Shown here: in pieces, positions 53,875-60,175 of the stretch
Layout: every line of letters starts with the position of its first letter
Position numbering within the stretch: position 1 is the first letter of the stretch
DNA from: Myxococcales bacterium
Lineage (GTDB): Bacteria > Myxococcota > Myxococcia > Myxococcales > JAJYLH01
NCBI GenBank assembly: GCA_021787845.1
Contig: JAJYLH010000005.1
Span: forward strand, 150,658 to 214,657
DNA: 64,000 nucleotides
Direction of reading: 5' to 3'
The notes under the pieces: generated by a model
What the model was told of the DNA's origin: nothing
Seen by the model: only the letters and a program-made list of their open reading frames with translations
Databases searched by the model: none
Position numbers and translations under genes: made by a program

Positions 53875-53998
53875 GGCGTTCCCTCGAAAAAAAGGCGAGG
53901 GAACATAGCGGAAGCATCGCGAGCGCTCAAGCGGCCCGGGCCCGCGGCCGTCTGGCTCGCCCCGGCGTCACTGCGGGGGCTTGGCCGGCACGCGGTCC

Positions 53999-54389
53999 TC
54001 GAAAAGCTCGACTTATCCACAGGCCGCGGTACAAGGTCGTCGAAAGACGTAACTTTTACCGATTGTGCGGCGCAGGCTCCCCGAAAAGCTCGACTTATCC
54101 ACAGGCTGCGCTGCAAGGACCTCGAAAGACGTAACTTTTACCGACCGTGCGCGACGGGTTCCCCGAAAACGACACTTTCCGACGACCTCGCGCCACCGGC
54201 TCCTCGAAAACGACACTTTTCGGCGACCTCGCGCCACCGGCTCCTCGAAAACGATGCTTTTCGACGACCTCGCGCGACGAGGTCCCCGAAAACGACACTT
54301 TTCGACGACCCCGCGCCACCAGCTCCCCGAAAACGACACTTTTCGACGACCCTGCGCGACGAGGTTCCCGAAAACGACACTTTCCGGCG
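53999..54389. repeat. 41-bp tandem repeat array (nine full units plus a split tenth)
   Basis: Units start at 53999, 54040, 54081, 54122, 54163, 54204, 54245, 54286, 54327, 54368 with constant 41-bp spacing; core CGAAAACGACACTTTTCG. Confidence 0.93.
54013..54103 (+). other. Two perfect DnaA-box sequences TTATCCACA (54013-54021 and 54095-54103)
   Basis: Exact match to the E. coli-type DnaA box consensus; 82 bp apart, i.e. two 41-bp units. Confidence 0.6.
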
Positions 54390-54830
54390 GCGGGCATCGC
54401 CGTCGTCGGGTGGATGAGCCGGGCGGGACGCCCCCTCCCCAACCCGTCCCCCGCAAAGTACGCGGGAGAGGGGCTAACTGTGCCTTCGCATAGGCGATCT
54501 TTTCGGCTCCGCGCTGTCCCGCGTGGGTAGTGCGCAACGAGATGGCGTTCATGATCGTGCTCCATCTCGGCCGGAATTGGAGCCGGACACGTGAGTGTCC
54601 GGGTACAGGCACCGCGCACATGCGTTGGCCAAGCCAGCGCCAGGCCGCTGCCAGCGGGCGGATGCCCAGCATGAACCCGGACACTCACGTGTCCGGCTCC
54701 CGCTCCAATTCCGATTCCCACTCGAAACAGCGCGGAGCCAGCTTTTCCTCCCTCTCCCGCGCTCTTGCGGGGAAGGGGTTGGGGAGGGGGGGCGCCGCGG
54801 GCGACAACCCGAGGCGTCTGGATGCCCCCA
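54390..54830. mobile_element. MITE-like nested fold-back element, non-coding, ~441 bp, flanked by 8-bp direct repeat TTCCGGCG
   Basis: TTCCGGCG at 54382-54389 and 54831-54838; imperfect terminal inverted repeats (GGGCATC...CCCCCTCCCCAACCC...CCCCGCAA...GCGGGAGAGGGG); the flanks rejoin into one 41-bp-type unit. Confidence 0.65.
54579..54700. repeat. Inverted pair of REP-like hairpins (BIME-like)
   Basis: GGAGCCGGACACGTGAGTGTCCGGGT (54579-54604) and its exact reverse complement (54675-54700); each arm is itself a hairpin CCGGACAC-GTGA-GTGTCCGG. Confidence 0.85.
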
Positions 54831-54979
54831 TTCCGGCGACCCCGCGCGACCGGCTCTCCGGCGGCGCCGCCAGCCGATGTGATCCGCGTCGCATCTTCTT
54901 TTTTTGACTCCGGCGAGCGTGCGCGGTACCAAGCAAGCGTTCTACGTGCGGTTTGCGGCGGTCGAAGCGAGGCAACGGG

Positions 54980-58474: not shown

Positions 58475-60175
58475 ATGCGTCTTTTTGCGGGAGCGGCTCA
58501 GCGGATGGGAAGAGGGTGGCTCGCTCTGAGCGTGGCGCTTGCGCTGCCGCTCTCCGCTTCCGCCGCCAACTTGCGCCGCCTGGAAAAGGTCGAGCTGAGC
58601 GGCACCGGAATCGCCACCGCGCTCGCCATCACCACCGACGGCCCCGCGAACTGGACGAGCTTCAAGCTTTCCGAGCCGACGCGAATCGTTCTCGACTTTC
58701 CGGAGACGGTCGCCACCGCGCAGAGCTACGAAGTCGCGTCCGACGACCCCGTGACGCGCTGGAGCATCGAGGTCCTGGGCGATCCGCGCTCGCCGACGGC
58801 GCGCCTGACCGTGCAGCTCGCCCGCGACGCGGACTACCTCGTCACGTCGCACGGCTCGACCATCACGCTGAAGCTGCGACCGGCGACCGCGCGGCCACTC
58901 GTCGCGCTGGCGACCGAGAGAGCACGAGCGCAGCCGGCAAGCGCGCCAGCCCCCTCCGCCACCACCGGATGGTCGACAAAGAAGCGCGCGGCGATCGAGG
59001 CGCGGCTCGACGCCAAGGCCAAGACCGAGGCGGCGGATGTGGCCGCCGCGAAGCGCCTCGAGGCGAAACGAAAAGCGGACCAAGCTGCGCGACGCGCGGC
59101 GCAAGAGAAGGCCCGAGAGGCGGCCCAGCTCGCGGCGAAGAAAAAGGCGGAAGCGGCCGCGCATGCGGAGGCGAAACGAAGAGCGGATGAAGCCGCGAGG
59201 CGCTCGGCGCAGGAGAAGGCACGAAAGGCGGCTCAGCTCGCGGCGAAGAAAACGGCGGAAGCGGCCGCGCGCGCGGAGGCGAAGCGAAGAGCGGATGAAG
59301 CCGCGAGGCGCGCGGCGCAGGAGAAGGCTCGCCAGGAGGCGAAGCTCGCGGCGAACGAGAAAGCGGAGGCCGCGGCGCGCGCGGAGGCGAAACGAAGAGC
59401 GGACGAGGCCGCAAAGCGCGCGGCGCGTCAGAAGGCTCGTCAGGAAGCGAAGCTGGCGGCGAAGAAGAAGGCGGAAGCCGAGGCACGCGCGGAGGCGAAA
59501 CGAAGAGCGGACGAAGCCGCGAAGCGCGCGGCGCGTGAGAAAGCGCGAAAGGCGGCCCGGCTCGCGGCGAAAGAGCAAGCGGAAGCCGAGGCGCGCGCGG
59601 AGGCGAAACGAAGAGCGGACGAAGCCGCAAAGCACGCGGCGCGTGAGAAGGCACGAAAGGCGGCCCAGCTCGCGGCGAAAGAACAAGCGGAAGCCGAGGC
59701 GCGCGCGGAGGCGAAGCGAAAAGCGGACGAGGCCGCGAAGCGCCGGGCGGCACGAGCGGCGCGCAAGGCAGAAGCGGTCTCGGGGAGGCGCGCCGCCAAG
59801 CCGCGTCGCACGCTCGCGAGGTTGCGCCCGCTGGGATTCCGGCGCATGGCGACTGGCGACGCCGAGATCCTCATCCGCACGAGCGCGCCGGTGCCGTTCG
59901 CGCTCGACACCCAGGCGCGCGACCAATGCTCCGTCGAGCTGGAAGACACCGTCATCGACGTCGCGAACAATCGGCTGCCGCTCGACACGCGCTACTTCGA
60001 CACCGCGGTCGCGCGGGTGGCGCCGCACGCGAATCGCGCCCATCGGCGCGTGAGCATCGAAATCGATCTCTCCCATCCCGCCATCTGCGCCGTGCGCGCC
60101 GCGGGAAGCTCGTTGCGCGTCGAGGTCCTCGGAAGCGGTGCGGCCTTGCGAGCAGCGATTCCCGGCGGGAGATGA
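58475..60175 (+). CDS. AMIN-domain protein with central 36-aa helical tandem repeats and a C-terminal AMIN-like domain
   Basis: Signal peptide then LRRLEKVELSGTGIATALAITTDGPANWTSFKLSEPTRIVLDFP (AMIN-like); repeats AEAKRRADEAAKRAAREKARKAAQLAAKEQAEAEAR; C-terminal MATGDAEILIRTSAPVPFALDTQ. Confidence 0.85.
   Translation: MRLFAGAAQRMGRGWLALSVALALPLSASAANLRRLEKVELSGTGIATALAITTDGPANWTSFKLSEPTRIVLDFPETVATAQSYEVASDDPVTRWSIEVLGDPRSPTARLTVQLARDADYLVTSHGSTITLKLRPATARPLVALATERARAQPASAPAPSATTGWSTKKRAAIEARLDAKAKTEAADVAAAKRLEAKRKADQAARRAAQEKAREAAQLAAKKKAEAAAHAEAKRRADEAARRSAQEKARKAAQLAAKKTAEAAARAEAKRRADEAARRAAQEKARQEAKLAANEKAEAAARAEAKRRADEAAKRAARQKARQEAKLAAKKKAEAEARAEAKRRADEAAKRAAREKARKAARLAAKEQAEAEARAEAKRRADEAAKHAAREKARKAAQLAAKEQAEAEARAEAKRKADEAAKRRAARAARKAEAVSGRRAAKPRRTLARLRPLGFRRMATGDAEILIRTSAPVPFALDTQARDQCSVELEDTVIDVANNRLPLDTRYFDTAVARVAPHANRAHRRVSIEIDLSHPAICAVRAAGSSLRVEVLGSGAALRAAIPGGR
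59056..59745 (+). repeat. 108-bp (36-aa) in-frame tandem repeats, about six copies
   Basis: Segment gcggaggcgaa(a/g)cgaagagcgga(t/c)ga recurs every 108 bp (around 59164, 59272, 59380, 59488, 59596, 59704). Confidence 0.88.

Follow-up and report, generated by a model that had tools for sequence, protein, structure and literature searches.

By what steps did a tandem array come to hold 441 bp of fold-back sequence (54390-54830)? Flanking the array and insert are a - strand gene resembling those for asparaginyl-tRNA synthetase and a + strand gene of metallo-hydrolase type, putative names that we take from reading the translations. The window, that is the whole stretch of 64,000 nucleotides analysed here (C128:150658-214657), has a G+C content of 70% and belongs to a draft genome of 6.24 Mb and 153 contigs. 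A sequence-only reading had described the insert as a nested fold-back MITE. The insertion and the nesting both hold, but the insert is not one fold-back element; it consists of two separate MITEs and a REPIN.

We consider it very likely that an IS1595-type outer MITE entered the array and that a different IS1595-type inner MITE, with the REPIN on board, later entered the outer one. This account draws on the structure of the insert, its duplications, related copies, the empty sites of the inner element and the similarity of the ends to IS1595-family elements of the same genome. The most economical history starts with the array, to which first the outer MITE and then the inner one, together with its REP doublet, were added. 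Since all the layers are of known kinds, novelty is low: the insert is a Russian doll, unusually clean, and no new kind of element. Biologically it is an ordinary accumulation of mobile elements; at the same time it documents successive insertions cleanly, with the duplications still present at two levels.

The array and the outer insertion

The target is a tandem array of 82-bp and then 41-bp units (53996-54383, + strand; Tandem Repeats Finder), present as a single copy in the genome. As first read from the sequence, TTCCGGCG stands at both 54382-54389 and 54831-54838 (+ strand), flanking the insert, and the rest of the interrupted last unit follows at 54839-54860 (+ strand). The left copy is in array phase, its start at 54382 lying one exact period past the previous unit (54341+41). 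When 54382-54389 is joined to 54839, 25 of 30 positions match the array consensus, compared with 13 of 30 for the unjoined sequence; joining the flanks does recreate an array unit, as had been proposed. The window's genome is the sole member of its family and genus among the genomes searched and, because there is no close relative, the window's array itself serves as the empty site for the outer insertion. In 60 relatives the two flanking genes have their matches at separate places, and the intergenic region that holds the insert has no counterpart.

Two side observations concern the array. An exact DnaA-box-like TTATCCACA lies at 54013-54021 and at 54095-54103, one per 82-bp unit at the array start, and occurs nowhere else in the window (0 in 100 shuffles). 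Other short-period tandem arrays of the same genome (L158:860-1180 and L135:3000-3640) have units like CCGACCAAGACCCCTCGCCAA and GGGTCGATGAAGACGTCTTGA, which differ in sequence from those of the window's array.

The outer element has the build of a MITE: terminal inverted repeats, a length of 441 bp without a transposase gene, a target-site duplication (TSD) identical at 8 of 8 positions, and multiple copies in the genome. Its left arm (54390-54504, + strand) begins with the end GCGGGCATCGCCGTCGTCGGGT followed by a CCCCTCCCCAACCC hairpin arm, for which the genome holds relatives, and its right arm (54740-54830, + strand) finishes with GTCTGGATGCCCCCA. The arms are inverted repeats with an alignment score of 29.7, while 500 shuffles scored at most 7.9, and the insert strand folds as DNA with z = -14, no shuffle being equally stable. 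The imperfect terminal repeats of the earlier reading are therefore real, and its statement that there is no transposase frame also stands, the four reading frames of the insert having no Pfam match. Both ends have drifted: the left end is 1 base short and the 3 outermost bases of the right end differ.

The sequence-only reading had proposed a search for further copies with 8-bp direct repeats, and related copies were found in the genome. A search with the whole insert returned 150 matching stretches and one with the left arm alone 50. Outer relatives share CCCCTCCCCAACCC...GCGGGAGAGGGG arms and tip sequences of type GGCTATCCGGTTCGCTCAGGTTG. Copies with 8-bp TSDs, read from the flanks, lie at L016 (CTCCCGCA), L051 (CTCCGGAA) and L056 (CACCGATA); several other relatives have no recognisable duplication or one end only.

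The right end leads to a second, better preserved family. Read inward, the window's right tip is TGGGGGCATCCAGACGCCTCGGGTTGT, and the tip of a MITE of about 256 bp is GCTGGGTATCCAGACATCTCAGGTTGT; none of 2000 shuffles aligned as well, and both tips have the same offset from the duplication. The terminal repeat of the 256-bp MITE has 93 matches in the genome at up to 3 mismatches (75 exact; reversed control, 0). Where both flanks are present (16 copies), the 8-bp duplication is perfect in 14 cases and matches at 7/8 in one, so that 15/16 reach at least 7/8. In the order's other genomes (145 including the window's), the end motif has one single match, with 2 mismatches. The family looks recently active. 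As observations apart, copies at L106, L112, L117, L133, L145 and elsewhere are near-identical and have perfect 8-bp duplications, and copies coincide with many contig ends.

We weighed these data against a different origin, in which GC-rich hairpin repeats dispersed in the genome recombined or slipped and the 8-bp repeat arose by chance within the array. The array is indeed repetitive, and an 8-bp repeat by itself is weak evidence because 8 exact ones occur among the 24,000 position/distance combinations near the site (distances 350-549); the remaining 7 fall into a run of 4 (distance 531) and a run of 3 (distance 474). Moreover, TSDs are missing from some of the outer relatives, and the duplication on either side of L003 is longer. 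What counts is where the duplication lies and that its offset is that of related elements: it sits exactly at the inverted-repeat ends, with the offset seen in 15/16 related MITE copies and in a complete IS1595 element at C83. This makes recombination or slippage extremely improbable. Insertion of about 441 bp with an 8-bp duplication, as initially suggested, is instead supported by the array phase, the inverted-repeat ends and the TSDs of related copies. In this first step, a non-autonomous IS1595-type MITE would have entered the last 41-bp array unit and duplicated 8 bp.

The inner element and its empty sites

An inner MITE of 235 bp lies at 54505-54739 (+ strand), with ends GGCTCCGCGCTG and CAGCGCGGAGCC. 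It is bordered by ATCTTTTC on the left (54497-54504, + strand), where uninterrupted outer copies read GATCTTTTCCTCCCTCTCC, and by AGCTTTTC on the right (54740-54747, + strand), which agrees with the left copy at 7/8 in TSD scoring. Its subterminal hairpin CGAGATGG/CCATCTCG (54538-54569, + strand) is conserved in position in other copies. Both this hairpin and the REP-like pair had been noted before; they are present, but as parts of the separate inner element.

With GGCTCCGCGCTG ends on both sides, 235 bp without a transposase gene, a TSD of 7/8 and a genome-wide set of about 40 related copies that mostly lie outside outer elements, the inner element is a MITE in its own right. Of 18 inner end pairings, two of which share one right end, 11 have 8-bp duplications at 7-8/8, compared with 3/306 mismatched pairs used as a control.

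Several outer copies are uninterrupted at the inner site (L029, L053, L055, L058, L059 and L067), and the empty site GAAGGCGATCTTTTCCTCCCTCTCCCG is found in L029, L053, L058 and L067. Such paralogous empty sites are direct evidence of the inner insertion. They also bear on the idea of a single 441-bp composite that moves in one piece, its inner part being a fixed component and not the product of a later insertion. An outer element is likewise combined with an inner one in L003, L006, L007 and L039. Nonetheless, the empty sites largely refute a single composite, most inner copies stand without an outer element and have TSDs of their own, and within outer elements the inner one can point either way, its position varying by 1 bp. 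We therefore regard the composite as very unlikely and retain the two-step history, in whose second step a different IS1595-type MITE would have entered the centre of the outer element and duplicated 8 bp (ATCTTTTC).

In L003 and L007 inner elements occupy nearly the same outer site as in the window, in L007 in the opposite orientation, so this landing site has been hit at least three times. Possibly, then, the inner MITE favours one landing site in the outer MITE (TCTTTTCC, at least three independent hits), which would act as a safe harbour, and the REPIN may gain a DDE-type route of dispersal besides RAYT; we put this forward tentatively and would give it clearly less than even chances. As a separate observation, at L003:1450-2010 the outer-plus-inner composite stands between direct repeats of about 30 bp (CACCAGTGAGTGAAGACGACCACGGAGG), not 8-bp ones.

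The REP doublet and a RAYT-like gene

Within the inner MITE, two REP copies form a REPIN-like doublet with their spacer (54579-54700). The first, GGAGCCGGACACGTGAGTGTCCGGGTACAGGC, lies at 54579-54610 (+ strand) and the second, inverted, at 54669-54700 (- strand); the two make up an inverted repeat, and the doublet is able to form a hairpin. The REP palindrome has about 344 matches across the genome (control, 0). Inverted REP doublets that form hairpins are known as REPINs (PMC3116915), and RAYT genes are flanked by inverted REPs, with a GTAG/GTGG tag by the palindrome (PMC2817692). The doublet in the inner MITE is of the kind that RAYT transposases spread, and we infer that a RAYT spread it here too. 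It was probably already part of the inner MITE when that MITE began to spread, because most inner relatives carry one. Doublets without an inner MITE are present at L014 and L035. An inner MITE without the doublet (L019) and one with a single REP (L032) were considered as pre-insertion states and rejected, since their junctions look like deletions.

A candidate partner gene, Y1/IS200-like (RAYT-like), lies at C84 (L041:1273-2109). Six REP palindromes flank it, two on one side and four, inverted, on the other, and its Y1_Tnp match in Pfam is a weak one that, at 20 bits, falls short of the cut-off. Relatives, mainly from Planctomycetota, can be aligned with most of the protein, their identity reaching about 40%. 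The protein has a His where the aligned relatives have a conserved Tyr, presumably the catalytic residue, as in the E. coli protein. It may be inactive.

What is shared with REPIN/BIME systems and their RAYTs is the hairpin doublet, REPs in the hundreds and inverted REPs around a RAYT-like gene (PMC3116915, PMC2817692). The system here differs in three respects: the GTAG/GTGG tag is absent from beside the palindrome in the 32-nt REP, the RAYT-like protein has His for Tyr, and a DDE-type MITE carries the doublet. This carriage of a RAYT-type REP doublet by a DDE-type MITE is of interest in the locus, as is the tidy record of two successive duplications.

IS1595-family elements and the probable origin of the ends

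The search for transposase elements with matching ends, also proposed from the sequence, led to IS1595-family elements in the same genome. At C83 lies a complete IS1595 element with perfect inverted ends GGGTATCGCCTTCGTTCAGG and the 8-bp TSD CAAACCAG. The outer left tip aligns with its end, and 3 of 2000 shuffles aligned as well. At C37, an intact frame encodes an IS1595-family transposase of 321 aa (Pfam DDE_Tnp_IS1595, E = 2e-26; NCBIfam IS1595, 6e-51), 55% identical to that of C83. The gene adjoins a terminal repeat that differs from that of the 256-bp MITE at 3 of 23 positions, a single such repeat being seen before the contig ends. The outer insert thus combines an end match to IS1595-family elements with 8-bp direct repeats. 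Judged by these similarities, the C37 and C83 transposases would be the likeliest sources of mobilisation in trans, with IS1595 transposase so supplied presumably cutting the outer and inner ends. Candidates of the DDE_Tnp_1 type (PF01609) were rejected as a source; their ends show no close match.

For the inner family, the relevant element is a broken one at C153, which contains the relic of an IS1595-family transposase. The left-end consensus of the inner family agrees with the sequence just downstream of this relic at 21/23 positions, much of which rests on similar terminal tips; the window's own copy agrees with the C153 end at 17 to 19 of 23. Elements of the ISL3 family also start with GGCTC and make 8-bp duplications, and the inner element, with a GGCTC start and an 8-bp TSD, was first considered to belong there. 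The genome does contain an ISL3 transposase remnant with an apparent end resembling GGCTCC. Only this remnant is present, however, and no inner-type end (GGCTCTGCGCCGTTTC) with up to 3 mismatches lies near it, whereas the inner consensus has its 21/23 match beside an IS1595-family relic. An ISL3 assignment is thus unlikely, and it was dropped in favour of the IS1595 family on account of the end at C153.

Among known elements, ISApl4, of the IS1595 family, makes 8-bp direct repeats (PMC12561309). Like MITEs derived from this family, the elements here have imperfect terminal inverted repeats, 8-bp repeats, no transposase, and ends resembling those of IS1595-family elements in the same genome. 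What sets the outer element apart from such MITEs is its GC-rich fold-back interior (CCCCTCCCC) and the second MITE that interrupts it. A broader parallel is offered by TIMEs, Tn3-derived miniature elements that form mosaics (PMC4133298). They have in common with the elements here that they are bacterial miniature elements mobilised in trans that form mosaics, and they differ in deriving from Tn3-family transposons, the ends here being IS1595-family-like, with an 8-bp duplication.

Finally, a tandem repeat of another kind lies elsewhere in the window: at 59060-59743, a 108-bp repeat in a coding frame gives rise to an Ala/Lys/Glu-rich repeat protein.
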